Part shown: positions 2,198 to 44,837 of the stretch, piece by piece
Numbering within the stretch: the first letter of the stretch is position 1
How the letters are laid out: each line of letters opens with the position of its first letter
From: Streptacidiphilus carbonis
GTDB taxonomy: Bacteria > Actinomycetota > Actinomycetes > Streptomycetales > Streptomycetaceae
Direction of reading: 5' to 3'
DNA: 64,000 nucleotides
Assembly: GCF_000787775.1 (NCBI RefSeq)
Contig: NZ_BBPM01000013.1
Span: 80,540-144,539 of the forward strand
The notes under the pieces: generated by a model
What the model saw: the letters and a program-made list of their open reading frames with translations, nothing else
Told to the model about the DNA's origin: nothing
Database searches by the model: none
Translations under genes and position numbers: made by a program

Positions 2198-2232
2198 GGG
2201 CGCAGCGGCCGCGACTACAGTTGGGGGGTAAT

Positions 2233-2337
2233 CCACGGGAGCCCGGCGTACCGGGCTGAGAGGGAGGCAGCAGGGGCGTACCGCGCTCCCGGCCTCCGAC
2301 CGTCCGAACCTGATCCGGGTCATGCCGGCGAAGGGAG
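2233..2337 (+). promoter_or_regulatory. TPP riboswitch (THI element)
   Basis: The two conserved THI-box blocks are present: CCGGGCTGAGAGG around 2252 and GAACCTGATCCGGGTCATGCC around 2306, followed by GGCGAAGGGA. The paired P1 ends are CCACGGGA-like at the start and GGGA at the end. It ends ten bases before the thiO GTG at 2347, so control of translation start is likely. A TACAGT hexamer at 2216-2221 could be the promoter -10. Confidence 0.95.
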
Positions 2338-2346
2338 TGGGCAGCT

Positions 2347-3536
2347 GTGCCACGTACCAACGCGTCGGACCCCGCGCCGGACGTCCTGATCGTCGGCGGC
2401 GGGATCATCGGCCTGGCCACCGCCTGGCGGACGGCCCAGCGCGGCCTGTCCGTCACCGTGCTGGACCCCGATCCGGGTCGCGGGGCCAACCAGGTCGCCG
2501 CCGGGATGCTGGCGCCGGTCACCGAGCTCCAGTACGGCGAAGAGGACCTGCTGCGGCTCGGCATCGCCTCCAATGAGCGCTACGCCGACTTCGCCGCCGA
2601 GCTGACCGCCGCCTCGGGCCTGTCCACCGGCTACCGCGCCTGCGGCACCCTGGCCGCGGCGCTGGACGCCGACGACCGGGCCGAGCTGCGCGAGGTGCAC
2701 GCGTTCCAGCAGCGGCTGGGCCTGGAGGCCCAGTGGCTCACCGGGCGCGAGTGCCGCCGGTTGGAGCCCATGCTGGCCCCCTCGGTCCGCGGCGGGCTGC
2801 TGGTGACCGGCGACCACCAGGTGGACGGGCGGCGGCTGGGCGCGGCGCTGCTGGCCGCCTGTACCGCGGCCGGGGTGCGGCTGCACCGCTCCCGGGCCGC
2901 CCGGATCGAGCTGACGGACGCCCAGGACCGGGTGGTGGGCGCGCTGGCCGAGGACGGCACCCGGCTGGCCGCCGGGCAGACCGTGCTGGCGGCGGGCAGC
3001 TGGTCCGGGGAGGTACCCGGCCTGCCGCCGGCCGCGCGGCTGCCGGTCCGTCCGGTCAAGGGCCAGATCCTGCGGCTGCGGATGACCACCACCACCGGCG
3101 CGCCGCTGCCCGGCGGCCCGTTCCTGTCCCGCAACCTCCGCGCCGTGGTCCGCGGTGTGCACCTCTACCTGGTGCCGCGCGAGGACGGCGAGCTGGTGGT
3201 CGGCGCCACCATGGAGGAGCAGGGCTTCGACACCGCCGTCACCGCCGGCGGGGTCTACGAGCTGCTGCGGGACGCCCACGAGCTGGTCCCCGGCATCACC
3301 GAGCTGCCGCTCGCGGAGACCGGCGCCGGGCTGCGGCCCGGCACCCCCGACAACGCCCCGCTGCTGGGACCGACCGCCCTGCCCGGCCTGGTCGCGGCCA
3401 CCGGGCACCACCGCAACGGCGTGCTGCTGACCCCGGTCACCGCCGACGCCGTCTCCGCCTACCTGGCCACCGGCGTGCTGCCGGCCGAGGCCGCCCCGTT
3501 CACCCCCGCCCGCTTCTCCCTGATGGAGGCCAGCTC

Positions 3537-6649: not shown

Positions 6650-7354
6650 ATGACCTCACCTGTGACGGCCGATCTCTTCGACACCATGGCGACCATGCGG
6701 GCCATGCGCCGGCTGAGTGCCGAACCGGTGCCGGCCGAACTGCTGGAAAAGCTCGTCCAGGCGGCCGTCTACGGTCCGAGTGGTCACAACGCCCAGGACT
6801 ACCAGTACGTGCTGGTCACCGACCGCGAGGTGATGACCAGGCTGGCCCCGCTCTGGGCCCGCTGCGTGGACGCCTACCTGGCCTCCGCGGGCCGCACCGT
6901 CCCCGCGCCGATGGACGAGGGCGCGTACGAGCGGATGCGCGCCGCGATCGAGTACCAGCGCGACCACTTCACCGACATCCCGGCGCTCATCATCCCCTGC
7001 TACCGCTCCCCCAAGGGCCAGGCCGACCTGGACGGCCTGCGCGGCATGGTCGCCACCCTCGGCACCGCGGGGCTCGGCCGGCTCGCCGCCCGGGGCGGCC
7101 GGTTCAGCCTGCTCGCCGAGGCCTCCAGCGTGTACCCGGGCATCCAGAACCTGCTGCTGGCCGCCCGCGGCCTGGGGCTGGGAGCGAATCTGACGATCTG
7201 GCACCTGCTGCTGGAACGCGAGTGGAAGGCCGCACTGGGCATTCCCTCCGACATCCACACCTTCGGCATCATCCCGGTCGGCTGGCCCCTGGGCCGCTTC
7301 GGCCCGGTCCGCCGCCGCCCCCTCGCCGACGTCCTCCACCGCGACCGCTGGTAG
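6650..7354 (+). CDS. Nitroreductase family protein
   Basis: A 234-residue FMN-binding nitroreductase-fold protein. It shows the N-terminal motif TMRAMRRLSAEPVP, followed by LLEKLVQAAVYGPSGHNAQD for the FMN phosphate, and C-terminal NLLLAARGLGLGANL and IIPVGWPLGRFGPVRRRPL, the family's closing FMN contacts. Its substrate is unknown. I start it at ATG 6650, eight bases after a TAGACT hexamer (6636-6641), which suggests a leaderless mRNA; a GTG two codons earlier is possible. Confidence 0.88.
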   Translation: MTSPVTADLFDTMATMRAMRRLSAEPVPAELLEKLVQAAVYGPSGHNAQDYQYVLVTDREVMTRLAPLWARCVDAYLASAGRTVPAPMDEGAYERMRAAIEYQRDHFTDIPALIIPCYRSPKGQADLDGLRGMVATLGTAGLGRLAARGGRFSLLAEASSVYPGIQNLLLAARGLGLGANLTIWHLLLEREWKAALGIPSDIHTFGIIPVGWPLGRFGPVRRRPLADVLHRDRW

Positions 7355-7370
7355 CTGCGGCGTGTGCCTG

Positions 7371-7469
7371 GCTCGTCGCGCAGTTCCCCCGCACCCCCGG
7401 GGTAGGTGCAACTTGCTCACGGCGGGCCAGTTGCAGCCCCTGGTGGCGCGGGGAACTGCGCGACAAGCC
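7371..7469. repeat. Palindromic intergenic element, copy 1
   Basis: Left arm TCGCGCAGTTCCCCCGCACC and right arm GGCGCGGGGAACTGCGCGACAAGCC are inverted copies, with an inner stem GCAACT/AGTTGC and a long loop between. The right flank continues with CTACGGTCCGCAGCCGAAG, which also occurs beside copy 4. It lies between the convergent nitroreductase and acetyltransferase genes. Confidence 0.9.
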
Positions 7470-7495
7470 GCCTACGGTCCGCAGCCGAAGACCCG

Positions 7496-8035
7496 TCAGC
7501 CACGGTTGAGGCGGTGGACGACGGTGACACCGGACTCCGCGGGGGCGCCGCCCCGTTCCGCGTCGGGTTCCCGGGAGACGACGGTGAAGCCGAGGCGGCC
7601 GGGAACGGCCCCACTCGCGGTGTTGGCCTCGTCGTGGTGGATTTCCACATGCGTGGTCGCCGGCAGGGCGAAGGCGGCTTCGACCAGCGCGGCCACGGCC
7701 ATGGTGACCAGGCCGCGGCCGGTCCAGCCGGGGTGGATCCAGTAGCCGATCTCGAAGCCGCCGGGGCCGATCCGCCGCATCAGGCTGCACGAGCCGACGG
7801 GCACCCCGTCGCTGACGATCACGTAGTCGTAGGCCGTGCCGGACGCCCAGTCCTTCTGAGCCCGGATCAGATGGTCCTCCAGCGACTCCCGGGTGTAACC
7901 GGACGCCCAGGCCATCCACGGCAGCAGGTGCTCCAGCGACTCGACGACGACGCGGTGCTGCTCGTCGGCGTCGTCGAGGCGCTTGCGGCGCAGCTCGACC
8001 CGGTCGTGGGTGAGTGTCTCGGCGGGGTGTTCCAT
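7496..8035 (-). CDS. GNAT N-acetyltransferase, RimJ/RimL-like
   Basis: A 179-residue protein with the RimL-type layout: ELRRKRLDDADE at the start, GSCSLMRRIGPGGFEIGYWIHPGWTGRGLVTMAVAALVEAAF containing the acetyl-CoA loop (about residues 95-130), and VEIHHDEANTASGAVPGRLGF. The loop GWTGRGL fits the Q/RxxGxG/A pattern. The acceptor (a protein N-terminus or small molecule) cannot be told. It is convergent with the nitroreductase across repeat copy 1. Confidence 0.85.
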   Translation of the reverse strand: MEHPAETLTHDRVELRRKRLDDADEQHRVVVESLEHLLPWMAWASGYTRESLEDHLIRAQKDWASGTAYDYVIVSDGVPVGSCSLMRRIGPGGFEIGYWIHPGWTGRGLVTMAVAALVEAAFALPATTHVEIHHDEANTASGAVPGRLGFTVVSREPDAERGGAPAESGVTVVHRLNRG

Positions 8036-13124: not shown

Positions 13125-15092
13125 GTGACCAACGCCACTGGTTCTGACAACGCCGCCGCGCTCGTCGCCAGGCTCGTCGTCGCCGGCGAGCCCTTCGCCC
13201 TGCTGCACCGCCGGACCCCGCGGCTGGCCCCCGACACCGTCGAGGTGCTGTTCGGCGAGGTCGGCTCGTACGAGACGCTGGCCGCGCTGCCGCTGCCGGA
13301 GGGGGCGCCGGGCGCCCCGGTGCACGATCTGCTGGCCCTGGTCCCCTATCGCCAGCTGCGCGAACGCGGCTTCGACGCCCGCGACGACGGCACCCCGCTG
13401 CAGGCCCTGAAGGTGCGCGAGTCCTTCGCCCTGCCGCTGTCCGAGCTGCGGGCGGCGCTGCCGCAGGTGCCGGTCCGGCTGGACGACGGCGGCTTCGACA
13501 TCGACGACGACGCCTACGCGGGGATCGTCCGGCGAGTGATCGAGGACGAGATCGGCCGCGGCGAGGGGGCGAACTTCGTCATCCGCCGCGACTTCACCGG
13601 GACCCTGCGGGACTTCTCCCAGGCGCTGGCGCTGACCCTGTTCCGGCGACTGCTGGAGCAGGAGCGCGGGGCGTACTGGACCTTCCTGGTGCACACGGGC
13701 GAGCGGGTGCTGGTCGGGGCGAGCCCGGAGGTCCATGTCCGGCAGGCCGGCGGGACGGTGGTGATGAACCCGATCTCCGGCACCTACCGCTACCCGGCCG
13801 AGGGGCCGAGCCTGGACTCCCTGCTGGCGTTCCTGCACGACCCCAAGGAGCTGGAGGAGCTCACCATGGTCGTGGACGAGGAGCTCAAGATGATGTGCGC
13901 GGTCGGCGACCTCGGCGGCCAGGTGCTGGGTCCGCGCCTCAAGGAGATGGCGCACCTCGCCCACACCGAGTACGAGCTGCGCGGGCGGACCACCCTGGAC
14001 GTCCGCGAGGTGCTGCGGGAGACCATGTTCGCCGCCACCGTCACCGGCAGCCCGCTGCAGAACGCCACCCGGGTCATCTCCCGCTACGAGTCCACCGGGC
14101 GCGGCTACTACGCGGGCGCGCTGGCGCTGATCGGCCGGACATCCGGCGGCGGCCAGACCCTGGACTCCCCCATCCTGATCCGCACCGCCGACATCGACCC
14201 GGCGAGCGGGAGGCTCGCGGTGCGGGTCGGCGCGACCCTGGTGCGGCACTCCGAGCCCGACGCCGAGGTCGCCGAGACGCACGCCAAGGCGGCGGGGGTG
14301 CTCAGCGCGATCGGCGCCGTCCCGGCGCGGGCGGCGCGGTCCGGTGCGGCGGCGGGGGCGCGGTCCGGGGCGGGGACGGCGCCGCGGCTGGCCGACAACC
14401 ACCGGGTGCAGGCGGCGCTGGACGCCCGGCGTGGCAACCTGGCCCCGTTCTGGCTGCGGATGCAGGTGGCGCCGGCCGCGGTGGCCGATCCGGCGGAGGT
14501 GCTGGTGATCGACTGCGAGGACACCTTCACCTCGATGCTGGCCCATCTGCTGCGGTCGCTGGGGTACCGGGTCACCGTCCGGCGCTATGACCTCCCCGGT
14601 CTGGCCGAGGCGGTCGCCGCGCACGTCGGACCACTGGTGCTGGGCCCCGGCCCGGGCGACCCGGCCGATCTGACGGACCCGAAGATGCGGCGGATGCAGG
14701 GCGTGGTCGGCGAGCTGATGGCCACCGGCCGTCCGGGCGGACTGCTCGCGGTCTGCCTCAGCCACCAGCTGCTGTGCGCGTCGCTGGGGCTGCCGCTGCG
14801 GCGCAAGGCGGTGCCCTACCAGGGCGCGCAGGAACGGATCGACCTGTTCGGCGCGGCCCGGACGGTGGGCTTCTACAACACGTTCACCGCGGTGTGCGAC
14901 GAGGGCGACGTGGCGCGGCTCGCGGCCCGGGGGATCGAGGTGAGCCGTGACGCGGTGACGGGCGACGTCTTCGCGGTGCGGGGGCCGGGGTTCGCGGGCG
15001 TGCAGTTCCATCCGGAGTCGGTGCTCACGCTGGACGGCGTCGGCATCGTGGGTGAGCTGTTGGCGGCGGTGGGTGTTGCGTCGGTGGTCTAG
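13125..15092 (+). CDS. trpEG: Anthranilate synthase, fused TrpE-TrpG
   Basis: Converts chorismate and glutamine to anthranilate. One 655-residue chain carries the chorismate-binding component first (FVIRRDFTG, PEVHVRQAGGTVVMNPISGTYR, ELTMVVDEELKMM, TVTGSPLQNATRVI, GYYAGALALIG) and a glutamine amidotransferase after an Ala/Gly-rich linker at about 410-425. Amidotransferase residues are C544 (AVCLSHQ), H629 and E631 (FHPES). The fusion resembles PhzE-type proteins, but the trp attenuator argues for tryptophan supply. GTG start at 13125. A promoter-proximal gene with trpD far away (46459), so the trp genes are dispersed. Confidence 0.95.
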   Translation: MTNATGSDNAAALVARLVVAGEPFALLHRRTPRLAPDTVEVLFGEVGSYETLAALPLPEGAPGAPVHDLLALVPYRQLRERGFDARDDGTPLQALKVRESFALPLSELRAALPQVPVRLDDGGFDIDDDAYAGIVRRVIEDEIGRGEGANFVIRRDFTGTLRDFSQALALTLFRRLLEQERGAYWTFLVHTGERVLVGASPEVHVRQAGGTVVMNPISGTYRYPAEGPSLDSLLAFLHDPKELEELTMVVDEELKMMCAVGDLGGQVLGPRLKEMAHLAHTEYELRGRTTLDVREVLRETMFAATVTGSPLQNATRVISRYESTGRGYYAGALALIGRTSGGGQTLDSPILIRTADIDPASGRLAVRVGATLVRHSEPDAEVAETHAKAAGVLSAIGAVPARAARSGAAAGARSGAGTAPRLADNHRVQAALDARRGNLAPFWLRMQVAPAAVADPAEVLVIDCEDTFTSMLAHLLRSLGYRVTVRRYDLPGLAEAVAAHVGPLVLGPGPGDPADLTDPKMRRMQGVVGELMATGRPGGLLAVCLSHQLLCASLGLPLRRKAVPYQGAQERIDLFGAARTVGFYNTFTAVCDEGDVARLAARGIEVSRDAVTGDVFAVRGPGFAGVQFHPESVLTLDGVGIVGELLAAVGVASVV

Positions 15093-15214
15093 TGCGGCGC
15101 CGTTCGTGGTTGCTGTTCGCGCAGTTCCCCGCGCCCCTATACGTTTGCAACTGGCCCGGTTGCAATTGCTTGAGGGGCGCGGGAACTGCGCGACAAGCCA
15201 CGACGGCGCCGCAC
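15092..15214. repeat. Palindromic intergenic element, copy 2
   Basis: Core 15111-15199 with arms TTCGCGCAGTTCCCCGCGCC and AGGGGCGCGGGAACTGCGCG around a short inner hairpin GCAACTGGCCCGGTTGC. The outer stem is private to this copy: GTGCGGCGCCGT at 15092 pairs with ACGGCGCCGCAC at 15203. The left end touches the trpEG stop codon. Confidence 0.93.
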
Positions 15215-15230
15215 GTCTGCACCCGCGAGT

Positions 15231-15236
15231 TAGTGT
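15231..15236 (+). promoter_or_regulatory. Candidate -10 box for leaderless tricorn mRNA
   Basis: TAGTGT six bases before the GTG at 15243, without a ribosome binding site between them. Confidence 0.4.
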
Positions 15237-15242
15237 GCCCGG

Positions 15243-18200
15243 GTGACTCTTGCTGAAGGCTATTTCCGGTTTCCGCACATCCATCAGGACCTGGTCACCT
15301 TCGTGGCCGAGGACGACGTCTGGATATCCCCGCTCGGCGGGGACGGCAGGGCATGGCGGGTGAGTGCCGATCAGGTGCCCGTGGCACGCCCGCGTTTCTC
15401 GCCCGACGGGTCGCTGCTCGCCTGGGCGTCCACCGCCGACGGCGCGCCGGAGGTGCATGTCGCGCCGGTCGAGGGCGGCCCGGCCCGGCGGCTGACCTAC
15501 TGGGGCAGCGCCCAGACCGCGCTGCTGGGGTGGACCGCCGAAGGCGAACCGCTGGCGCTCAGCAGTGTGGGGCGGATGTCCCGCGCCCACCCGTGGGCCT
15601 TCGCGGTGCCGCTGGACGGCGGCCCCGCGCGGCAGTTGCCGTACGGGCGGCTCGGCGCCCTCGCGCTGGAGCCCGGCGGGTCCGGGGTGGTGCTGGGCAC
15701 GGCCAACGCCGCCCGGGAGCCCGCGCACTGGAAGCGCTACCGAGGCGGCCGGGCCGGGAAGCTGTGGCTGCGCACCGACGGCGCGTTCCAGCGGGTCCAC
15801 CAGGAGCTGGACGGCAACATCGACTCGCCGATGTGGGTCGACGGCAGGATCGCCTTCCTCAGCGACCACGAGGGCGTCGGACGGCTCTACTCCAGCCTCC
15901 CGGACGGGTCCGACCTGCGGGTGCACAGCGAGCCGGACGAGTTCTACGCCCGCAACGCGACCACCGACGGCAGCCGGGTGGTCTTCCAGCGCGGCGGCAG
16001 CCTGTGGCTGCTGGACAGTCTCGACTCCGCCGGGCCGCGCCGGCTCGACATCGCCCTGGGCGGCCCGCGCACCGCCCGTCGGCCCCGCCCGATCACCGCG
16101 GCCGAGCACCTGGGCACGGTGGCCCCCGACGCGGAGGGGCGGGCCAGCCTGGTCGAGGTGCGCGGCACCGTGCACCGGGTCACCCACCAGGACGGGCCCG
16201 CCCGGGTGCTCTCGGACACCCCGGGCGTGCGCAACCGGCTGCCGCAGCCGCTGCCTGACGGGACGTCGGTGTGGGTCACCGACGCCGAGGGCGAGGACGG
16301 GCTGGAGTTCTCCGACGGCCGCCGGGTCGCCGTCGGAGCCCTGGGCCGGGTCGAACAGCTGGTCGCCTCGCCGGACGGCGCGCTGCTGGCCGTCGCCAAC
16401 CGGGACGGCGCGGTCCTGCTGGTCGCCGTCGAGGACGGCGCCGTACGGGAACTGGACCGCAGCCCCGCCGTCGAGGCCGAGGGCCTGGTGTTCTCGCCCG
16501 ACTCCGGCTGGCTGGCCTGGTCGCACGGCGCCGACCTGAACGAACGGCTGCGGCAGATCCGGCTGGCCCGGCTGGCCGACGGCGCGGTCACCGAGGTCAC
16601 CCCGCTGCGCTTCAAGGACGAGTCGCCCGCGTTCAGCGCCGACGGCAGATACCTGGCCTTCCTCTCCATCCGCGAGTTCGACCCGGTCTACGACGAGCAG
16701 GTCTTCGACCTCTCCTTCCCGCTGGCCTGCCGCCCCTACCTGGCGCTGCTGAGCGCCGAGACGCTCTCCCCGTTCGACCCGCTCCCGCAGGGCCGCCGGC
16801 CCGGACGGCCCGGGGACCGGGACGGGGAGGAGGCCGCCGAGGTGCGGGTCGACACGGACGGACTCGCCGCCCGGGTGGTCCCGTTCCCGGTCGAGGCCGG
16901 CCGCTACCTGTCGCTGCAGGCCGCCAAGGGCGGCTTCACCTGGCTGCACCGTCCACTGGCCGGGGTGCTGGGCAACGGCAAGGCCACCCCGGACACACCC
17001 GCCAAACGGCCCTCGCTGGAGTACTTCAACCTGGCCGCCCGCCGGCTGGAGACCCTGGCGGACGCCGTGGACCGCTACGCGGTCTCCGGCGACGGCGCCA
17101 GGCTGGCCCTGGTCGACGGCAAGGAGCTGCGGGTCGTCCCGGCCGACCGGAAGCCGGCCAAGGAGGACGACGGCGACAGTGTGGGCGTCGACCTGGAGCG
17201 GATCCGGGTCACCCTGGACCCGGCGGCCGAGTGGCGGCAGATGGTGGCCGAGGCGGCCCGGCTGATGCGGGACAACTACTGGCGGACCGACCTCAACGGC
17301 GTCGACTGGGAGGCGGTGCAGCGGCGCTACCGTCCGCTGGTGGACCGGCTCGGCAGCCATGACGACCTGGTCGACCTGCTCTGGGAGATCCAGGGCGAGC
17401 TCGGCACCTCGCACGCCTACGTCCAGCCCAAGGCGCGCAAGGTCGCGGACGCCCGTCGGCCGGGGCTGCTCGGGGCCGACCTGGCCCGGGCCGAGGACGG
17501 ACTCTGGCGGATCGTCAGGATCCTGCCGACGGAGACCTCGGACCCCGCGGCGCGGTCGCCGCTGGCCGCGCCCGGGCTGGGAGCCAGGGCCGGGGACGCC
17601 GTCCTGGCCGTCAACGGCCGCGCGGTCGACCCGGTGACCGGTCCGGCCCCGCTGCTGACCGGAACGGCCGGCAAGCCGGTCGAACTGACCCTGGACGCGG
17701 GCGCCGAGGGCGGCGAGTACGAGGTGGTGGTCGTCCCGCTCGCCGACGAGGAGCCGCTGCGCTACCACGACTGGGTGGCGGGCCGACGGGCCCGGGTCCG
17801 CGAGCTGTCCGGCGGACGGCTCGGCTACCTGCACCTGCCCGACATGATGGGCCCGGGCTGGGCCCAGCTGCACCGGGACCTGCACACCGAGGCGGCCCTG
17901 GACGGGCTGGTCGTGGACACCCGGGAGAACCGGGGCGGCCACACCTCGCAGCTGGTGGTCGAGAAGCTGCGCCGACGGGTCGTCAAATGGCAGACCATCC
18001 GCGAGTTCCGGCCGCACCCGCGGTATCCGGAGGACGCCCCGCGGGGACCGCTGGTCGCGGTCGCGGACGAGTTCTCCGGGTCGGACGGCGACAACATCAA
18101 CGCCGCGTTCCAGGCCTACGGCCTGGGTCCGGTGGTCGGCGTCCGGACCTGGGGCGGGGTGGTCGGGATCGACGGCCACTACAAGCTGGTGGACGGCACC

Positions 18201-18410
18201 GGGGTGACCCAGCCGCGGTTCCGCACCTGGTTCGAGGGCTACGGCTGGGAGCTGGAGAACCACGGCGTCGACCCGGACGTCGAGGTGGTGTGCACACCGG
18301 AGGACTGGGCGGCGGGGCGCGACCCGCAGCTGGACGAGTCCGTCGCCGTCGCCCTCCGGGCCCTGGAGTCGACCCCTGCCGTCGCACCGCCGGGGTTGCC
18401 GCCGCTCTGA
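15243..18410 (+). CDS. Tricorn protease homologue (S41 family)
   Basis: A 1,055-residue self-compartmentalising peptidase that in this family trims proteasome products in the cytoplasm. The N-terminal 600 residues hold two beta-propellers (repeating units such as ARPRFSPDGSLLAW and ESPAFSADGRYLAFLS). The C-terminal part has a core domain (MVAEAARLMRDNYWRTDLNGVDW), S723-H724 in LGTSHAY, a PDZ domain around 750-820 (GAGDAVLAVNGRAVD-like) and the nucleophile S947 in FSGSDGDN, then GVRTWGGVVGIDGHY. The length matches the family. The gene is bracketed by repeat copies 2 and 3. Confidence 0.94.
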   Translation: MTLAEGYFRFPHIHQDLVTFVAEDDVWISPLGGDGRAWRVSADQVPVARPRFSPDGSLLAWASTADGAPEVHVAPVEGGPARRLTYWGSAQTALLGWTAEGEPLALSSVGRMSRAHPWAFAVPLDGGPARQLPYGRLGALALEPGGSGVVLGTANAAREPAHWKRYRGGRAGKLWLRTDGAFQRVHQELDGNIDSPMWVDGRIAFLSDHEGVGRLYSSLPDGSDLRVHSEPDEFYARNATTDGSRVVFQRGGSLWLLDSLDSAGPRRLDIALGGPRTARRPRPITAAEHLGTVAPDAEGRASLVEVRGTVHRVTHQDGPARVLSDTPGVRNRLPQPLPDGTSVWVTDAEGEDGLEFSDGRRVAVGALGRVEQLVASPDGALLAVANRDGAVLLVAVEDGAVRELDRSPAVEAEGLVFSPDSGWLAWSHGADLNERLRQIRLARLADGAVTEVTPLRFKDESPAFSADGRYLAFLSIREFDPVYDEQVFDLSFPLACRPYLALLSAETLSPFDPLPQGRRPGRPGDRDGEEAAEVRVDTDGLAARVVPFPVEAGRYLSLQAAKGGFTWLHRPLAGVLGNGKATPDTPAKRPSLEYFNLAARRLETLADAVDRYAVSGDGARLALVDGKELRVVPADRKPAKEDDGDSVGVDLERIRVTLDPAAEWRQMVAEAARLMRDNYWRTDLNGVDWEAVQRRYRPLVDRLGSHDDLVDLLWEIQGELGTSHAYVQPKARKVADARRPGLLGADLARAEDGLWRIVRILPTETSDPAARSPLAAPGLGARAGDAVLAVNGRAVDPVTGPAPLLTGTAGKPVELTLDAGAEGGEYEVVVVPLADEEPLRYHDWVAGRRARVRELSGGRLGYLHLPDMMGPGWAQLHRDLHTEAALDGLVVDTRENRGGHTSQLVVEKLRRRVVKWQTIREFRPHPRYPEDAPRGPLVAVADEFSGSDGDNINAAFQAYGLGPVVGVRTWGGVVGIDGHYKLVDGTGVTQPRFRTWFEGYGWELENHGVDPDVEVVCTPEDWAAGRDPQLDESVAVALRALESTPAVAPPGLPPL

Positions 18411-18430
18411 CCGTTGCCGCCTTGTTGTGG

Positions 18431-18514
18431 CTTGTCGCTCAGTTCCCCGCGCCCCTGGCAATTGCGACCCCGGGTCAGTTGCAGCGCCCAGGGGGCACGG
18501 GGGACTGAGCCCCC
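18431..18514. repeat. Palindromic intergenic element, copy 3
   Basis: Left arm CTTGTCGCTCAGTTCCCCGC pairs with the degraded right arm GGGGGCACGGGGGACTGAGC, with inner ATTGCGACC/GTCAGTTGCA. The most diverged full copy. It begins about 20 bases after the tricorn stop. Confidence 0.85.
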
Positions 18515-18586
18515 GCGATGGATCACTCCACGACGCACCCCTACTGTGTCCCACAGCATCGGCACAGGACGACGACGGGGGACCAC

Positions 18587-20902
18587 ATGCAGCCGCTGGA
18601 AAGTGACGATCCGACAGCAATAGGCGCCTATCGGCTGATAGCCCGGCTGGGCGCCGGAGGGATGGGCCGGGTCTATCTCGCCCGCTCCGCGGGAGGGCGG
18701 ACGGTGGCGGTGAAGGTGGTGCGCCCCGAGCTCGCGGAGAGTGCCGACTTCAGGAGCAGGTTCCGCCGCGAGGTGGAGGCCGCGCAGGCGGTCTCCGGCG
18801 CCTACACCGCACCCGTGGTCGACTTCGACCACGACGCGGCGACCCCCTGGCTGGCCACCGCCTACGTACTCGGTCCCTCCCTGGCGGAGGCGGTGGACGC
18901 CCACGGCCCGCTGCCGGAACGCTCGGTCGCGGTGCTGGGGGCCGTCCTCGCCGAGGCGCTGCAGGCGATCCACGGCGCCGGGCTGGTGCACCGGGACCTC
19001 AAGCCGTCCAATGTGCTGCTGTCCGCGGACGGCCCGCGCGTGATCGACTTCGGGATCGCCCGCGCCCTCGACGGCGGTGAACTGACCAGCACCGGTGTGG
19101 TCGTCGGCTCGCCGGGGTTCATGTCGCCGGAGCAGGCCTCGGGCAGACCCGTCAGTCCGGCCAGCGACATCTTCTCGCTCGGCTCGGTGCTGGCCTTCGC
19201 CGCCACCGGCCACGGGCCCTTCGGCGCGGACTCGGTCGCCACGCTGCTGTACCGGGTCGTCCACGAGGCCGCCGAACTCGGTGACCTGCCGGTCGGGTTG
19301 CGCGAGCCCGTGGGCGCCTGCCTGGCCAAGGACGCGGCTGACCGGATCACCCCGGCGGCGCTGTCGCGACTGCTCGCGCCGACCGGCACCCCCGCCCTGC
19401 TGCGGACCGCCTGGCTCCCCGCCGAGGTGGCCTCCGGCATCGCCTCGCACGCGGCGCGGGTGATGGACATGGAGGCGCCGCAGGCCGGCCCCGGGGGCGG
19501 CGGGACGATGCTGCTGGGCCCGGCCGCCGGCGCCGACCCGGCCACCGCCGTGCTCGGCCGCACCCCGGTCCCGGCCGGCTTCCCGACCCCTCCCCCGGCC
19601 GCGCCCGCGACCACCGCGGTGGCCCCTGCCGAGCCCGGCCGGCGCAAGGTGCTCACCGGGGCGCTGTCGGTCGGCGCTGTCGCGGTCGTCGGCGGTGGCG
19701 TGGCGCTGGCGCTGTCCGACCACTCCGGCAGGAAGCCGGAGCCGGGCCCCACCCGCTCGCCCGCCCCGAGCGCCTCGGCCGACGCCGGTGCGAGCGCCTC
19801 CGCGGGCAGTGCCGCCGTGAGCTACCCCACCCATGCGCCCGGGGTGGCGCCCGCGGCGGTCTGGGTCTACAAGGGCTCCAGCCTGACCGAGGTACCGGTG
19901 GTTCCCTACCACGGCACGCTGATGGTCAGCGGGGCCAGTCTGACCGCGGTCGACGCCCGCAGCGGCAAGCAGCAGTGGCAGGGGCCGGAGTTGGGGTCGG
20001 CCTTCGCCACGCCGCCGATCGGCATCGGCGCCGGCGTGGTCGTCTCGGTGGGCTACACCGCCACCGAGCAGCCCGCCCTGCTCGCCACCGATCCGACCAC
20101 CGGGGCGGAGCGCTGGCACCTGCTGGAGCCGGCAGCGCTGGCCTTCACCTCGGTCCTGGCCGTGGACGACGAGCGGGTCTACCTGCTCGGCAGCAAGTAC
20201 CCGGTGGACGCCAACGGCAAGGCGGTGATCACCATCGGCGATCCGACCACCAAGGCGGTGATGGCCGTCGACCTGCGCACCAGGAAGGTCGTCTGGACCC
20301 AGATGCGCAAGGCCTCGGCCAACGACCAGGTCACCGGATCGGTGGCGGGGAAGTACCTCGTCTACACCAACGACCAGAACAACGTCGTGGTCCGGGACAC
20401 CACCACGGGGGTGCAGCTCTGGTCCAAGGACTTCGGCCTGAAGGACTTCCAGTCCCAGGTGGACCCGCTGATCAACGGCGGCGACCTGTACGTCGGCGGC
20501 CCGCAGCTCCTGGGCTTCACCGTGGCCGACGGCAAGCAGGTGCTGTCGGTGAAGAACACCAGCGGCGGCTCCTTCGACGTCCCCGCCTTCGCCGACGGCG
20601 TGCTCTACGCGGCCGACCTGCGCGGGGCCCGGGTGGCGCTGAACGCGGCCACCGGTTCCCAGCAGTGGGAGTGCGTGATCCCGGACGGGCCGTCCACCTC
20701 CACCCTGGTGGTGGTGGGGACGACCCTGTTCGCCGGGTCCTTCGTGGGCAGCAACGGGGTCTATGCGATCGACCGGAAGAGCGGCAAGATCCTCTGGAAC
20801 TACCGCACCACCGCCAACGACAAGGACTGGTGGCTGGCCACCGACGGCACCCTGCTGTACGGGGTCGTCGGTGACGAGGTCCACGCCCTGCCGCCGGTGT
20901 AG
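18587..20902 (+). CDS. AfsK-like Ser/Thr protein kinase with PQQ-type beta-propeller
   Basis: A 771-residue membrane kinase resembling AfsK. The N-terminal Hanks domain has LGAGGMGRVYLA, ATP lysine K43 (VAVKVVR), HRDLKPSNVLLS, DFGIARALDGG and SPGFMSPEQA. A proline-rich linker leads to one transmembrane segment (LSVGAVAVVGGGVALAL, about residue 370), then repeats of the PQQ/YVTN type such as LTAVDARSGKQQWQG, AVDLRTRKVVW and GVYAIDRKSGKILWNY, which would form an extracytoplasmic propeller. ATG 18587 has GGGGGA five bases before it; an upstream ATG at 18518 lacks this. The signal sensed is unknown. Confidence 0.92.
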   Translation: MQPLESDDPTAIGAYRLIARLGAGGMGRVYLARSAGGRTVAVKVVRPELAESADFRSRFRREVEAAQAVSGAYTAPVVDFDHDAATPWLATAYVLGPSLAEAVDAHGPLPERSVAVLGAVLAEALQAIHGAGLVHRDLKPSNVLLSADGPRVIDFGIARALDGGELTSTGVVVGSPGFMSPEQASGRPVSPASDIFSLGSVLAFAATGHGPFGADSVATLLYRVVHEAAELGDLPVGLREPVGACLAKDAADRITPAALSRLLAPTGTPALLRTAWLPAEVASGIASHAARVMDMEAPQAGPGGGGTMLLGPAAGADPATAVLGRTPVPAGFPTPPPAAPATTAVAPAEPGRRKVLTGALSVGAVAVVGGGVALALSDHSGRKPEPGPTRSPAPSASADAGASASAGSAAVSYPTHAPGVAPAAVWVYKGSSLTEVPVVPYHGTLMVSGASLTAVDARSGKQQWQGPELGSAFATPPIGIGAGVVVSVGYTATEQPALLATDPTTGAERWHLLEPAALAFTSVLAVDDERVYLLGSKYPVDANGKAVITIGDPTTKAVMAVDLRTRKVVWTQMRKASANDQVTGSVAGKYLVYTNDQNNVVVRDTTTGVQLWSKDFGLKDFQSQVDPLINGGDLYVGGPQLLGFTVADGKQVLSVKNTSGGSFDVPAFADGVLYAADLRGARVALNAATGSQQWECVIPDGPSTSTLVVVGTTLFAGSFVGSNGVYAIDRKSGKILWNYRTTANDKDWWLATDGTLLYGVVGDEVHALPPV

Positions 20903-20928
20903 GGGGCGAGCGGGGCCGGGGAGGCCGG

Positions 20929-21954
20929 TCAGCCGAAGAAGACGTCGAACTCGGAGTACAGCGCGGGTTCGACGGTCTTGATCCGGGCGGTGGCGTCCGC
21001 CAGCGGCACCCGGACGATGTCGGTGCCGCGCAGCGCCACCATCGTCCCGTAGTCGCCGTCGTGCACCGCGTCGATGGCGTGCAGGCCGAAGCGGGTGGCC
21101 AGCCACCGGTCGAAGGCGCTGGGGGTGCCGCCGCGCTGGATGTGCCCCAGGACGGTGGTCCGCGCCTCCTTCCCGGTGCGGGCCTCGATCTCGTGGGCCA
21201 GCCACTCGCCGATGCCGGAGAGCCGGACATGGCCGAAGGCGTCCCGGGTGTCGTCCTTGAGCACCATCTGGCCCTCGACCGGCATGGCGCCCTCGGCGAC
21301 CACCACGATCGGCGCGTAGTTGATCCGGAAGCGCTGCTCCACCCAGGCGCAGACCTGGTCCATGTCGAAGCGCTGCTCCGGGATGAGGATCACGTTGGCG
21401 CCGCCCGCGATGCCCGAGTGCAGTGCGATCCAGCCGGCGTGACGGCCCATCACCTCGATCACCAGCACCCGGCGGTGCGACTCCGCGGTGGTGTGCAGCC
21501 GGTCGATGGCCTCGGTGGCGATGTTGACGGCGGTGTCGAAGCCGAAGGTGTAGTCGGTGGCGTTGAGGTCGTTGTCGATGGTCTTGGGCACGCCCACGAC
21601 GTTGACGCCGTTGTCGTGCAGGGTGGCGGCGACCCCGAGGGTGTCCTCGCCGCCGATCACGATCAGCGCGTCCACCTGGTACTTCTCCAGGTTCTCCTTG
21701 ACCTTGCGGATGCCGTCGGCGACCTTGAGCGGGTTGGTGCGCGAGGACCCCAGGACCGTGCCGCCGCGCGGCAGGATCCCCCGGACCTCCGGGATTCCGA
21801 GGGGAAGGGTGGCGCCCTCCAGCGGGCCGCGCCAACCGTCCCGAAAGCCGGTGAACTCGTATTCGTAGACCTCGACGCCCTTGCGGACGACCCCCCTGAT
21901 GACCGCGTTGAGCCCCGGGCAGTCCCCGCCGCCGGTGAGCACGCCGATCCGCAT
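20929..21954 (-). CDS. pfkA: 6-phosphofructokinase (GGEDT type)
   Basis: Phosphorylates fructose 6-phosphate in glycolysis. The 341-residue protein shows GVLTGGGDCPGLNAVIRG, LGSSRTNP, VPKTIDNDL with the catalytic aspartate, EVMGRHAGWIAL and GHIQRGGTPSAFDRW. The phosphoryl-donor loop reads IGGEDTLG rather than GGDGS; from knowledge of actinobacterial enzymes this still fits ATP use, but ATP versus pyrophosphate cannot be settled by eye. A strong GGGGAGGGGACG ribosome site precedes the ATG, and a CATACT hexamer lies further upstream. Confidence 0.93.
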   Translation of the reverse strand: MRIGVLTGGGDCPGLNAVIRGVVRKGVEVYEYEFTGFRDGWRGPLEGATLPLGIPEVRGILPRGGTVLGSSRTNPLKVADGIRKVKENLEKYQVDALIVIGGEDTLGVAATLHDNGVNVVGVPKTIDNDLNATDYTFGFDTAVNIATEAIDRLHTTAESHRRVLVIEVMGRHAGWIALHSGIAGGANVILIPEQRFDMDQVCAWVEQRFRINYAPIVVVAEGAMPVEGQMVLKDDTRDAFGHVRLSGIGEWLAHEIEARTGKEARTTVLGHIQRGGTPSAFDRWLATRFGLHAIDAVHDGDYGTMVALRGTDIVRVPLADATARIKTVEPALYSEFDVFFG

Positions 21955-22052
21955 ATCCGTCCCCTCCCCTGAGTATGACGAACTGTCACTTCACGGTAGC
22001 GGCGGGCGGGACGGTTGCACCCTGCTGTGCACAGGACAGGGGCCCCACCGAC

Positions 22053-22201
22053 GGGTCTTCGGCTGCGGGCCGTAGGTGGCTGGGCGCGCAGTTCCCCGCG
22101 CCCCTATGGGGCTGCAACTGAACCACCGCCGGCAAGTTGCACTATTCAGGGGCGCGGGGAACTGCGCGACAAGCCATCTACGGCCCGCAGCCGAACCTCC
22201 C
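22053..22201. repeat. Palindromic intergenic element, copy 4 (longest arms)
   Basis: Arms of about 50 bases with only a few mismatches. The outer stem TTCGGCTGCGGGCCGTAG at 22058 pairs with CTACGGCCCGCAGCCGAA at 22178; the shared core CGCGCAGTTCCCCGCGCCCC at 22086 pairs with its inverse at 22149; and the inner stem is GCAACT/AGTTGC. It lies between the pfkA start and the 3' end of the response regulator gene. Confidence 0.95.
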
Positions 22202-26362: not shown

Positions 26363-26385
26363 ATCTGGGCTGCGGCATGTGCGTG

Positions 26386-26483
26386 GTTGTTCGCGCAGTT
26401 CCCCGCGCCCCTACGAAAGTGCAACTGACCCACTGTGAGCAAGTTGCACCTTCATAGGGGCGCGGGGAACTGCGCGCTCAGCC
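26386..26483. repeat. Palindromic intergenic element, copy 5
   Basis: GTTCGCGCAGTTCCCCGCGC and GGGGCGCGGGGAACTGCGCG are inverted arms, extended inward by CCTACGAAAGTGCAACT against AAGTTGCACCTTCATAGG. A long loop of the copy 1/4 type separates the inner stem. It sits between two convergent gene ends. Confidence 0.92.
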
Positions 26484-26485
26484 GG

Positions 26486-27232
26486 CTACGACCCCGCAGG
26501 GATCCGCAGGACGGCCACCAACGGCAGATGGTCGGTGGCGGCGATCAGATCCTTGCGCGGTAGATCGTCAGGCACGCCGCAGGCGAGAACCTCGATGCCC
26601 GGGGTGGCGAAGACGGCGTCGATGCGCTGGTAGGGGTCGGCCGGGACGGACGTGAACCCGGAGCCCCAGGGGGCGGTGGCCCAGCCGTCCTGGAGGCGGC
26701 CGGCCAGTAGTTTCCAACCGGGGCCGTCCGGGTGCTCGTTGAAGTCCCCGCCGACCACGCCCAGTCGGGTGCCGACCCGGTCCAGCTGCTCCAGCAGCAT
26801 CCCGCACTGGTCGTAGCGTTCGTCGGGGTCGAGCGAGAGGTGACAGCTCGTCACCGAGAACGGCTCGGCCGTGCCGAGCCGCACCACCGTGGTGGCGAAG
26901 CCCCGCTGGTGCAGGCCGGGGGTCCGCGGCAGCAGCACGTCGTGGACCGAGAGCGGCATCGCCCGCAGCCGTCCCAGCAGCAGCGGGCCCGACGCGCTGA
27001 GCCCGCCGGAGAGGATCACCAGCCCGGTCGACCGGGCCAGCCACCCGGCCTGCTGCCGGGGGAACCAGAACCGCGGCGACTCCTGGACGCAGACCAGGTC
27101 GGGCTCGCAGGCCCGGACCAGCCGCGCCAGCACCGTGCGGTCGTCGCGCAGCGAGCGGATGTTGTAGCTGAGCAGCCGCACGACTTCAGAGCCGTCGGGC
27201 TGTGGACCGGAGGCGGGGAGATCAGCCAGCAT
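26486..27232 (-). CDS. Endonuclease/exonuclease/phosphatase family protein
   Basis: A 248-residue protein with the EEP catalytic signature: RLLSYNIRSLRDD, VQESPRFWF with the metal glutamate, SCHLSLDPDE, VGGDFNEHPDGPGW and ATDHLPLVAVL. No signal peptide is seen. Whether it cleaves DNA, sphingolipid or phosphoesters cannot be decided. The start may be the ATG 27232 or an internal GTG near residue 17, since the domain begins at VVRLLSYN. Confidence 0.88.
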   Translation of the reverse strand: MLADLPASGPQPDGSEVVRLLSYNIRSLRDDRTVLARLVRACEPDLVCVQESPRFWFPRQQAGWLARSTGLVILSGGLSASGPLLLGRLRAMPLSVHDVLLPRTPGLHQRGFATTVVRLGTAEPFSVTSCHLSLDPDERYDQCGMLLEQLDRVGTRLGVVGGDFNEHPDGPGWKLLAGRLQDGWATAPWGSGFTSVPADPYQRIDAVFATPGIEVLACGVPDDLPRKDLIAATDHLPLVAVLRIPAGS

Positions 27233-37506: not shown

Positions 37507-37530
37507 CAGTGGTCTGACCCGTCTGCATGG

Positions 37531-37608
37531 TTTGTCGCGCAGTTCCCCGCGCCCCTGCGGGGCTGCAACCGAGCCGGTTGCACATGCTGGGGGCGCGGGG
37601 AACTCTCA
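37531..37608. repeat. Palindromic intergenic element, copy 6
   Basis: Left arm TTTGTCGCGCAGTTCCCCGC matches right arm GGGGCGCGGGGAACT, which is cut short where the NlpC/P60 stop codon begins. Inner stem GCAACC/GGTTGC with a four-base loop. The left flank TGCATGGTTTGTCGCGCAG is shared with copy 7. Confidence 0.9.
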
Positions 37609-38691
37609 GACCCGGACCACCTCGGCCACGGGCATGTCGCCCACCCGCTCGTAGCGGACCCGGGCCCCCGGGTAGGGCGCGTGGATGATCGTCCCATGGC
37701 CTGCGTACATCCCTACGTGGTGCATGTCGCCGTAAAAGATCACAAGGTCGCCGGGCCTCGCCTGGCTCAGCGGGACCCGCTGTCCGGCGAAGGCCTGACC
37801 CTGCGAGGTTCGGGGCAGCGTCACCCCGGCATGGCGCCAGGACCAGTACATCAGGCCGGAGCAGTCGAAGGAGCCCGGGCCTGCGGATCCGTACACGTAG
37901 GGCTTGCCGAGGGCGCTCTCCGCGGCCGCCAGCGCCATCGCCGCGCGCGCGGAGGCCGGCCCCTGGCCGGACTGCGGCGGCTGCTCCGCGGTCTGCGCGG
38001 CCGCCCCGGCGGCGTCGTCCTCGTTCTGCTGGAGCTGGGCGCGCTGCGCCGCCGTCAGCGTGTCCAGCAGCGCCTTGGCGTGCCCGAGCCGCTGCTGCAC
38101 CTGGGTCTTGCTGCCGGCGATGGACTGCCGCAGCGACTCCAACTGGGCCAGCTGGGCGACCGCCTCGGCCCGGTCCTGCACCAACTGCCGCTGGTCGGAC
38201 TCGATCTCCTGGAGTTTCAAGGCGGCCACGGCGTCGGCCTGGTCCGCCGTGGAGGCCTGCTCCAGGTACTGGTCGGGATGGGCGTTGAGCAGCAACTTCA
38301 CCAGCGGGTCCACCCCGCCGCCCTGCCGGTACTCGGCGCTGGCGATCGAACCCATGGACTGGAGCAGCGTGTTCACATGCTGCTGCTCCTCGGCGACCCG
38401 CTGCTGCAGCAGCACCGACTCGCGCTGCAGCGACCGCTCCTGCTCCCGCGCCCCGTCGTACCGCTGGCCGGCCACCTCCGCCTGCGCGTAGAGGCCGTCG
38501 ACCTGCTGCCGGACGCCGTCGGCGGTGACCGGGGCGCCACCGGGGCCGCCGGGGGCGCCCGGCGCGGCCAGCGCGCTGCCACCGGTCGCCAGTACCGCCG
38601 CGGTCGCGGCCGCCAGGGTGGCCGCGGTGCGCGACAGGGCTGCCACGGTGGAGTGCTGGCCCAGCGGTCGGGCACGTCGGTGGGACGCCAC
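37606..38691 (-). CDS. NlpC/P60 peptidoglycan endopeptidase, paralogue 1 (RipA-like)
   Basis: A 361-residue secreted hydrolase that should cut the D-Glu-meso-DAP stem peptide bond. It opens with ASHRRARPLG and a signal segment (TAATLAAATAAVLATGGSALAAP). A coiled coil follows (VRQQVDGLYAQAEVAGQRYDGAREQE to about residue 230) and then the catalytic domain: cysteine in SFDCSGLMYWSW, histidine in DMHHVGMYAG and third residue histidine in IIHAPYPG. GTG 38691 is chosen because paralogues 2 and 3 start at the same position of the alignment; GGAG lies ten bases before it. It is the first of three tandem paralogues. Confidence 0.9.
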   Translation of the reverse strand: MASHRRARPLGQHSTVAALSRTAATLAAATAAVLATGGSALAAPGAPGGPGGAPVTADGVRQQVDGLYAQAEVAGQRYDGAREQERSLQRESVLLQQRVAEEQQHVNTLLQSMGSIASAEYRQGGGVDPLVKLLLNAHPDQYLEQASTADQADAVAALKLQEIESDQRQLVQDRAEAVAQLAQLESLRQSIAGSKTQVQQRLGHAKALLDTLTAAQRAQLQQNEDDAAGAAAQTAEQPPQSGQGPASARAAMALAAAESALGKPYVYGSAGPGSFDCSGLMYWSWRHAGVTLPRTSQGQAFAGQRVPLSQARPGDLVIFYGDMHHVGMYAGHGTIIHAPYPGARVRYERVGDMPVAEVVRV

Positions 38692-38844
38692 GGGGACTGG
38701 CTCCATTCGTCGAAGCAGAGGGCCGAGCGCCGACGTTAGCGAGTCGGACACAGGGAGTCCAAACCCTGGCAAGGACGAATATTTCCGCTGGATTAGTACA
38801 TTTTGACGAAACGCCACGTGAGGAGGGGTCGGCCGGACACGGCG

Positions 38845-38878
38845 ACGGGCCCGACCCCCGTCAGGGGATCGGGCCCGT
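38845..38878 (-). terminator. Terminator hairpin downstream of NlpC/P60 paralogue 2
   Basis: ACGGGCCCGATCCCC pairs with GGGGTCGGGCCCGT around a short loop. No T-run is seen. It lies 36 bases beyond the paralogue 2 stop. Confidence 0.75.
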
Positions 38879-38913
38879 ACAGCCGTTTGGGCGGCTCAGC
38901 CGGTCGTGTCGGC

Positions 38914-39984: not shown

Positions 39985-40007
39985 GAAGGCGAGCTCCTTC
40001 TTCCTAC

Positions 40008-40240
40008 GGCCGCCTACCGGGTGAGCTGACGGGTTCGGGCTGGAAGACGTGCCCTACAACGCTTCACCGGCGGACCGGCCTGGCGTCGATTCACCCCGAG
40101 GGAACTTGGTTCCCCGGCTCCGAAACTGACGGCGCTCCCCTGTGGTCATCCCGATGGCGTCGGGAGGGCCTGCCGTACGGTCGGACTCGGCGGAAACCTC
40201 CGCTGCCACCCAGGCTGGGTGATCGACTTCGCGGTGGTTC
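40008..40240 (-). promoter_or_regulatory. c-di-AMP riboswitch (ydaO-yuaA)
   Basis: Conserved ydaO blocks are seen on the minus strand: GATCACCCAGCCTGGGTGGC near the 5' end, the GGGGAACCAAGTTCCC hairpin, GGGGTGAATC and CCCGAACCCGTCAGCTCACC followed by CGGTAGGCGG. These match the form in front of streptomycete resuscitation-promoting factor genes, as I recall it. The element ends about 25 bases before the paralogue 2 start. High c-di-AMP is expected to stop expression. Confidence 0.88.
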
Positions 40241-40248
40241 GATCGCTG

Positions 40249-40278
40249 ACACTAGTGACCCAACCGTGATCCGTTCAA
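40249..40278 (-). promoter_or_regulatory. Promoter of riboswitch-NlpC/P60 transcript
   Basis: TTGAAC (40278-40273) and TAGTGT (40254-40249) are separated by 18 bases on the minus strand, close to the streptomycete housekeeping form TTGACN-18-TAGNNT. The expected start, near 40242, is exactly where the riboswitch begins. Confidence 0.7.
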
Positions 40279-40409
40279 ATCCCTGTAAGTAAAAAGTATC
40301 TTTGGTTACGACACTGCATCAGATTTCCAACGGACCGTAGTCGTCACATGACCACATGGCGACGACATGGCGGTCAAATCGGTCATCCGGTCGAGGTGTT
40401 CGAGGCTCC

Positions 40410-40425
40410 TGTGACGTGAGTCACA
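40410..40425. promoter_or_regulatory. Candidate Crp operator (TGTGACGTGAGTCACA)
   Basis: A 16-base inverted repeat with perfect six-base arms TGTGAC/GTCACA, identical in plan to the enteric CRP site TGTGA-N6-TCACA. It lies about 175 bases upstream of the predicted start of the riboswitch transcript and 60 bases beyond paralogue 3's stop. The 40279-40409 stretch holds only AT-rich DNA and no gene. Confidence 0.55.
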
Positions 40426-44835: not shown

Positions 44836-44837
44836 CT

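Follow-up and report, generated by a model that had tools for sequence, protein, structure and literature searches.

Two copies of a hairpin repeat in the window (the whole 64-kb stretch of Streptacidiphilus carbonis DNA analyzed) share a core but close with different outer stems, each of which pairs exactly. To an earlier note this looked like compensatory change, the usual sign of folding that matters in RNA or single-stranded DNA. We asked whether each copy's own arms match beyond what would be expected from arms drawn from other copies of the same repeat.

Copies of the hairpin repeat in the window

Eight copies lie within the window. Direct reading of the letters bore out the distinct outer stems of copies 2 and 4, with exact pairing over 12 and 18 nt respectively. 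Copy 2 (15092-15214, delimited from letters and folding) has an outer 5′ arm GTGCGGCGCCGT (15092-15103, plus strand), the first base of which is the final base of the upstream TAG stop codon, and this arm is complementary to the outer 3′ arm ACGGCGCCGCAC (15203-15214, plus strand). Between them lie the core 5′ arm CGCGCAGTTCCCCGCGCCCC (15118-15137, plus strand) and a core 3′ arm that is one base short of the consensus (15174-15192, plus strand). For copy 4 (22058-22195, delimited from letters), the complementary outer arms are TTCGGCTGCGGGCCGTAG (22058-22075) and CTACGGCCCGCAGCCGAA (22178-22195), both on the plus strand and both of type 1 (see below), and they enclose the core stem and apex (22085-22168). 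Copy 1 (7352-7489) does have the partly matched outer stem ascribed to it: CTGCGG and CCGCAG pair, with internal mismatches. It carries a type 2 arm on the 5′ side and a type 1 arm on the 3′ side, giving an interrupted outer stem below a long apex, and fills almost the entire gap separating two convergent called genes.

The same combination of arms, type 2 then type 1, was found in copy 5 (26367-26503), which runs into the 3′ end of the called gene that faces it (26486-27232, minus strand). The 3′ core arm is degraded in copy 6 (37514-37609) and in copy 3 (18411-18520), the latter flanked by genes for a tricorn-like protease and an AfsK-like Ser/Thr kinase. Copy 7 is a half element with a 5′ arm only (44773-44850, right end approximate), and copy 8 (61006-61130, ends approximate) has convergent called genes on either side. 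Folding included the outer stem in both the copy 2 region (MFE -96.3 kcal/mol, z -11.1) and the copy 4 region (MFE -118.6 kcal/mol, z -13.2). A search of the window against Rfam at gathering score returned three riboswitch matches, none of them at hairpin loci.

Arm types and distribution of the family

Further arms were located by an exhaustive mismatch scan of 2.73 of the 8.46 Mb of the genome, a sample that was not random, as 38 of the 40 sampled stretches and some tiles had been picked around already listed arms. The alignment (A1) comprises 74 of 79 copies, after removal of two beside N runs and of three with short loops (4, 4 and 11 nt). The core stem of 20–21 bp, CGCGCAGTTCCCCGCGCCCC and its complement, is nearly invariant, with 96.2% of core alignment cells paired in the 74 copies. 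The apex takes two forms, a short loop or an additional TTGCAACTG...CAGTTGCAA hairpin. The outer arms, of about 27 nt, are drawn from a small pool: type 1 (GCGGaCCGTAG), type 2 (GCGGcgTGTGC) and the CGCCGTCGTGG type of copy 2. The CCGTAG tag is confined to type 1 arms (41% EM share of 148 arms). Where both sides are of the same type the outer stem is perfect or near-perfect, as in copies 2 and 4; where two types meet in one copy it is interrupted, as in copies 1 and 5, and this is the more frequent state. Mixed types were seen in 35 of 53 typed copies (odds ratio 0.29, two-sided p = 0.046), the type table leaving out 21 of the 74 copies with an arm untyped or of a third class. With a cruder typing the figure was 33 of 60 (p = 0.41), so that the excess of mixed-type copies is marginal with the one typing and absent with the other.

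Exact 19-nt arms occur 252 times in the 8.46-Mb genome (reversed control, 0). The exact arm is present in 88 of 150 sampled family genomes, with counts within the genus ranging from 0 to 293, and the arm type of copy 2 (pattern CGCCGTCGTGGNNNNTCGCGCAGTTCCCC) in 19 of 101 family genomes and 2 of 17 genera. All copies of this dispersed palindrome known from the present analysis come from a single bacterial family, the one that includes Streptomyces. Related genomes were then compared at the sites of the window copies. Copy 4 is missing from its site in S. jeojiense (by letters) and in three further genomes, G002, G019 and G030 (by coordinates), and copy 6 is missing from G002 and G019 (by coordinates). 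In S. jeojiense and G002 the loop at the copy 3 site is short, as it is at the copy 2 site in G002 and G019. In G002 the copy 7 site holds a full element and the copy 8 site a compact-loop element.

These data bear on whether the repeat is a two-ended, MITE-like mobile element, moved by some transposase and ending in a type 1 arm on one side and a type 2 arm on the other, perfect stems being the exception. The marginal excess of mixed ends, the presence or absence of copies 4 and 6 between species and the spread of exact-arm counts within the genus make this a possibility, though one less likely than not: the cruder typing shows no such excess, a tail-to-tail arrangement of arms occurs beside the head-to-head one, no target-site duplication was noticed by eye at copy 4 (one empty site, in S. 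jeojiense, compared by letters), and no transposase link was found in a genome search that covered Y1/RAYT (PF01797). A RAYT-driven REP/REPIN system was rejected, since PF01797 had no match in the genome itself and was present in 5 of 14 control genomes. No phage match was found for the family, and 7 of 72,556 plasmid records, all from Streptomyces, matched in part, none over 80% of the query.

Matching of the two arms within a copy

Arm tests were performed on 77 copies (78 head-to-head pairs, less two beside N runs, plus copy 2 added by hand). An outer run of at least 12 nt common to both arms was seen in 9 of the 77, against 3.99 expected when the 5′ and 3′ arms of different copies were paired at random, and a run of 18 nt in one, against 0.12 expected; the longest run among 77 reached 18 nt in 12% of random-pairing trials. 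Matched outer stems are genuine and somewhat commoner than chance arm pairing predicts, and a single perfect stem is not surprising by itself because few shared arm types supply the arms. The 5′ arm of copy 4 scored 23, 21, 19 and 19 against the 3′ arms of some other copies and 18 against its own. An alignment-score test of arm matching showed no excess across the 77 copies (p = 0.36). Exact common runs were longer between a copy's own arms than between shuffled arms (7.01 vs 6.34 nt, p = 0.0016), and private arm tracts of at least 10 nt, matched within one copy, were found in 4 of the 77 copies, including copies 2 and 4 (0.42 expected).

Strand switching in replication or hairpin repair can copy one arm of a hairpin onto the other, and the private matched tracts suggest that such copying may occasionally have taken place here. 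Quasi-palindrome correction of this kind would make some copies perfect without selection; the excess of long exact runs and the contiguity of the private tracts (11–12 nt in C111:16156, C95:15960 and copy 2) argue for it. As the explanation of the outer stems it is nevertheless unlikely, since it explains few of the 77 copies, mixed-type copies persist, and a 17-nt portion of the copy 4 tract is also found in another copy, C138:72087.

Covariation was tested on the 74 aligned copies, leaving aside 10 tail-to-tail pairs and 48 single arms, with arms shuffled between copies as the null, which is not tree-aware. Across the 20 distal outer pairs, 61.6% were paired within copies compared to 61.2% after shuffling (p = 0.34), and a block shuffle of the same pairs likewise showed no excess pairing (p = 0.30). 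Five of the 20 exceeded expectation at nominal p < 0.05, but none of 55 single pairs passed a 5% false-discovery test. The distal net of zero conceals a weak joint excess at the outermost nine pairs (p = 0.013, uncorrected for the seven blocks tried) and a shortfall in the type segment, where the stems differ (alignment columns 19–22; 142 paired cells vs a shuffled mean of 158.2, p = 0.02). The proximal seven pairs covaried as a group (77.7 vs 73.3% shuffled, p about 0.001), and covariation in the inner stem was borderline (p about 0.05). The 17 pairs that RNAalifold predicted from the A1 alignment all fall in the core and inner stem, and the outer arms have none. Some coupling thus exists between the arms within a copy; it mostly takes the form of contiguous tracts or tips and does not extend to the type segment.

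The claim of compensatory change in the outer stems of this family is therefore partly supported: the coupling of the proximal pairs and the tip lends it weak support at best, and the distal arms show no net covariation, with a deficit in the type segment. It seems very unlikely that paired mutations maintain the outer stem as a functional helix of RNA or single-stranded DNA. The two different perfect stems in the window, the private matched tracts and the copy 2 site in G002, where most of the outer pairing is retained, speak for it. Against these stand the contiguity of the matched tracts, the frequency of mixed arm types and the copy 2 site in G019, where the 5′ arm is retained and its exact outer partner is gone, although an imperfect outer helix still appears there when the single sequence is folded.

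Position relative to genes

The gene context of 88 elements (the 78 head-to-head pairs, copy 2 and 9 tail-to-tail pairs) was determined using gene calls from a simple composition-based finder. Convergent gaps held 46, tandem gaps 34 and divergent gaps 3, with 1 at a contig edge and 4 overlapping a called gene, compared to 257 convergent, 547 tandem and 301 divergent among background gaps of at least 100 nt (chi-square p = 1e-12). In tandem gaps, 30 of 34 cores start no more than 53 nt past the upstream stop, vs 11% of random placements. The family usually lies just downstream of genes, the position of U-lacking / I-shaped terminators. The core forms a GC-rich hairpin, but the consensus past it reads ACCAGCCA, without the T run of a canonical Rho-independent terminator. 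Sense-strand G-U and A-C mismatches were alike in the core (6 vs 7 in 27 tandem copies, small numbers), and therefore no RNA signature was seen.

A role at the DNA level, such as offering sites to gyrase or nucleoid proteins between convergent genes, of the sort proposed for enterobacterial BIMEs, would fit the enrichment in convergent gaps, the palindromy of both strands and the lack of an RNA-type mismatch bias, but appears quite improbable, as most tandem-gap elements lie within 53 nt of stops, where a 3′-end role is simpler.

A probable explanation: arms of recombining 3′-end hairpins

The differing stems probably reflect, in the main, the arms that each copy holds, because matched types give a perfect stem and mixed types interrupt it, the copies being best read as recombining, bidirectional 3′-end hairpins that lack a U-tract. 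The observed basis of this explanation is the sequence, the arm statistics, the position and the presence or absence of copies between species. The repeats form one family of dispersed near-palindromic DNA elements, built of core, apex and outer arms. Each copy would owe its arms to descent, or to recombination between cores that are nearly identical; we infer recombination as the arm-shuffling step, no event having been observed directly. Occasional arm-to-arm copying within one hairpin may add matched stems. Judged from sequence and position, the conserved core may act in RNA directly past stop codons, as a bidirectional terminator without a U-tract or as a 3′-end stabilizer. A wider proposal is that the whole family is a portable bidirectional terminator of swappable parts: an invariant core, a pool of arms joined preferentially as mixed pairs, and an apical hairpin that existing sites acquire or lose. 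Such a terminator would spread by recombination, with no transposase of its own, and would rewire the 3′ ends of genes differently from species to species. We consider this rather unlikely.

Comparison with known systems

The family resembles REP-like extragenic palindromes in general in its many near-identical copies, few of which overlap a called gene (4 of 88). As described in the main text of PMC3733652, REP and BIME sequences are also short dispersed palindromes, mainly 3′ of genes, in head-to-head and tail-to-tail pairs; they form homodimers and heterodimers, and have sub-families with alternative complementary stem residues. They fall into GTAG and CGTC families, the latter apparently without a dedicated transposase (PMC3733652). 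The present family differs in its core stem, 20–21 bp plus arms compared to 5–13 bp there, and in a genome without a Y1/RAYT transposase match; that main text contains neither ‘Streptomyces’ nor ‘Actinobacteria’ (PMC3733652). In the REP GTAG superfamily, most families keep the GTAG tag at one end in more than 90% of their members, whereas the CCGTAG type has an EM share of 41% here.

A stable GC-rich hairpin without a U-tract is likewise described for the HS-U-lack ends of Streptomyces clavuligerus (PMC8269248), in which bidirectional transcript ends are reported, and for the structured non-motif ends of S. griseus (PMC8914203). Those classes, as presented there, are defined by mapped transcript ends, whereas ours is a repeated family known from sequence. 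Stable intergenic stem-loops of 40 bacterial genomes also favor convergent gaps and the 50 bp past stops, and some fall in repeated families (PMC1590033); ours is apparently not among them, ‘Streptomyces’ appearing once in that main text, in a reference. We found no description of the family in the open-access literature searched, and the four arm strings had no match in literature text, a search that does not reach strings in figures or supplements.

Two different self-complementary stems are weak evidence of compensatory change until the arms have been tested against those of other copies. The hairpin repeat is abundant and marks gene ends in the bacterial family that contains Streptomyces. 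If the hairpins terminate transcription, parts of the element would be usable as terminators, and hairpins gained or lost in particular species would offer a testable origin for differences in expression.

Outer Stems of the Window Copies

Direct reading of copies 2 and 4 of the near-palindromic hairpin repeat showed that the two different self-complementary outer stems described in the earlier note are both present exactly as claimed, with 15092-15103 pairing with 15203-15214 in copy 2 and 22058-22075 pairing with 22178-22195 in copy 4. Eight copies of the family lie inside the 64-kb window. By our own gene calls, copies 1, 5, 7 and 8 (7352-7489, 26367-26503, 44773-44850 and 61006-61130) occupy gaps between convergent genes, and copies 2, 3, 4 and 6 (15092-15214, 18411-18520, 22058-22195 and 37514-37609) gaps between tandem genes. 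A chorismate-binding/glutamine-amidotransferase gene lies upstream of copy 2, the final base of its stop codon being the first base of the copy, and a tricorn-like protease gene follows. Copy 4 is flanked by genes for a LuxR-type response regulator and a phosphofructokinase; the latter is 99% identical to that of S. jeojiense, to which the source Streptacidiphilus is close.

Outer arms were assigned to sequence types 1 and 2 by a mixture model on 148 arms, which typed both arms in 53 of 74 copies (1/1 = 8, 1/2 = 23, 2/1 = 12, 2/2 = 10). Mixed-type pairs were marginally above expectation (two-sided p = 0.046); a cruder typing (60 typed; 1/1 = 7, 1/2 = 20, 2/1 = 13, 2/2 = 20) gave p = 0.41. The model typed copies 1 and 5 as mixed and copy 4 as 1/1, and assigned copy 2 to neither type. 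The 5′ arm of copy 4 scored 23, 21, 19 and 19 against the 3′ arms of other copies and 18 against its own; its stem is not exclusive. The copy 2 arm is of the CGCCGTCGTGG type, the searched pattern of which had no match in the source genome (the 3′ core arm of copy 2 being one base short) and matched 19 of 101 genomes of the family, which fall into 2 of 17 genera. A TGGTTGCTGTT-like insertion of 3 nt was seen in the arms of 11 of 40 short-apex, 1 of 3 compact and 0 of 34 long-apex copies among 77 from the source genome (short versus long, p = 0.0006), hinting at sub-families of the repeat.

Tests for Covariation Between the Arms

For each of 77 copies, the likeness of the 5′ outer flank to the 3′ flank of that copy was set against its likeness to the 3′ flanks of the other copies. 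Likeness within copies was not above that between copies over the distal 25 nt (p = 0.36) or the type segment (p = 0.56), whilst the 10 nt adjoining the core were more alike within copies (p = 0.002). In place of the covariance model proposed in the earlier note, covarying pairs were sought by arm shuffling on an alignment of 74 copies (55 pairs). The result was positive for the proximal pairs as a group (77.7% paired vs. 73.3% shuffled, p about 0.001), borderline for the inner stem (93.0 vs. 92.2%, p about 0.05) and negative for single pairs, with 0/55 passing at a 5% false-discovery rate. No significant excess was seen in the core (96.2 vs. 96.0%, p = 0.11) or the distal pairs (61.6 vs. 61.2%, p = 0.34), 5 of 20 distal pairs exceeding the shuffle at nominal p < 0.05. 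Over the whole structure pairing was slightly above the shuffles (80.9 vs. 80.1% of cells, 2 of 500). The net zero over the distal pairs is the sum of opposite tendencies: the nine outermost pairs had 446 paired cells against a shuffled mean of 427 (p = 0.013), and columns 19-22 had 142, below the shuffled 158 (p = 0.02), each being one of seven blocks and uncorrected. As the shuffles ignore the kinship of copies, the weak positive values may be inflated, and the positive tip signal would also arise from degraded copies lacking the family tip on both sides.

Exact runs shared by the two arms of a copy were longer than those between random arms (7.01 vs. 6.34 nt, p = 0.0016), with runs of 12 nt or more in nine copies (3.99 expected). 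Private matched tracts, of 10 nt or more and in no other sampled copy, occurred in four (0.42 expected): copy 4, copy 2, and C111:16156 and C95:15960 from sampled stretches of the same genome. The copy 4 tract is private only at its full length of 18 nt, as a 17-nt part also occurs in C138:72087. The earlier reading of the two stems as compensatory change is only weakly and partly supported, by the proximal pairs, the outermost nine and these longer runs; it is not supported in the segment distinguishing the two stems, where columns 19-22 fell below the shuffle and the type segment was no more alike within copies than between them. Arm-to-arm copying is a known mutational route for quasi-palindromes, and the contiguous matched tracts point to such copying now and then within a hairpin rather than to step-by-step compensation; the tracts would also be compatible with selection for pairing.

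Equivalent Sites in Relatives

At the copy 2 site the same core is present in the related genomes G002 and G019; the loop is 4 nt long in the first and 6 nt in the second, and neither has an apical hairpin. The outer pairing is mostly kept in G002; in G019 the 5′ arm is kept and its exact partner gone, folding still giving an imperfect outer helix. Loops of 4 nt were found at the copy 3 site in S. jeojiense and, by coordinates, in G002, which has a 7-nt loop at the copy 8 site (by coordinates). Copy 4 is absent at the same site in S. jeojiense (letters compared). Coordinates alone show it absent also in G002, G019 and another relative, G030 (gaps of 23, 16 and 9 bp vs. about 180-205). Copy 6 is absent by coordinates in G002 and G019 (21 and 10 bp vs. 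93 and 85). Copy 7 is a half element, with a full element at the same site in G002.

By coordinates only, similarity to G002 and G019 breaks where copy 1 sits (stretch 7352-7503): they have about 1.3 and 2.7 kb there, against about 150 bp in the window. Likewise by coordinates only, a stretch with an AfsK-like kinase gene (18405-20933) is gone from the same place in G019, leaving 102 bp; the left break falls at copy 3, and an 85% identical counterpart lies on another G019 contig.

Elsewhere in the window, three 72-nt direct repeats (37828-40782, spacing 1.3-1.6 kb) perhaps reflect three related genes in tandem. They adjoin a c-di-AMP riboswitch (39995-40144, minus strand), which, like a SAM-IV riboswitch (46264-46400, minus), is an Rfam match. 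A TPP riboswitch lies at 2227-2353 (plus; 54.9 bits vs. a cut-off of 54.3).

Abundance and Genomic Position

The exact 19-nt arm has 252 matches in the 8.46-Mb genome, against 0 for a reversed control. A 2.73-Mb sample of it, chosen in part around known arms, contained 142 exact 20-nt arms; 78 pairs were arranged head-to-head and 10 tail-to-tail, and 48 arms stood alone. In the tail-to-tail pairs (e.g., L011:1943-2012 and L018:6958-7027) the same cores point outward and the arms join in the loop, which in several copies is a CTC-TACG-GAG-like sequence where the arms meet. Among 150 sampled genomes of the family, matches to the exact arm ranged from 0 to 478 and were present in 88; a phylum-wide draw of 296 genomes gave 7 with the arm, all seven belonging to the host's family. 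The exact long-apex form occurs in 3 of 14 genus genomes (62, 69 and 76 copies), and these three also carry the exact compact form (6, 9 and 5). Another relative, G074, has 240 exact arms yet lacks exact head-to-head pairs of both loop classes, which suggests another arrangement of the arms in that genome. The repeat is a real, widespread family of a known general kind; no description of it was found in the open-access papers searched.

We positioned 88 elements (the 78 head-to-head pairs, copy 2 and nine tail-to-tail pairs without an arm common to them): gaps between convergent genes contained 46 of them, those between tandem genes 34 and those between divergent genes 3; one more stood at a contig edge, and 4 overlapped a called gene. 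Background gaps of 100 nt or more numbered 257, 547 and 301, respectively. Of the 48 single arms, 25 were in convergent, 18 in tandem and 1 in divergent gaps, with 4 in called genes. In tandem gaps 30/34 cores began no more than 53 nt past the upstream stop, compared with 11% under random placement; for convergent gaps the nearer stop was within 46 nt in 40/43 (tail-to-tail pairs left out).

Selection against insertion elsewhere could produce the same positions. At the repeat hairpins there is no U-tract, and among sense-strand mismatches in 27 tandem copies G-U was not favoured over A-C (core, 6 vs. 7; proximal 9, 21 vs. 15). The family shares its gap and stop-codon preference with stable stem-loops in general, as described in PMC1590033. 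Other reports describe U-lacking hairpin transcript ends in Streptomyces (PMC8269248, PMC8914203) and, in S. coelicolor and E. coli, abundant short transcripts that map to palindromes (PMC4681348). Taken with these reports, the position near stops points to a putative 3′-end role of the repeat, which may act in termination or in protection of transcript ends.
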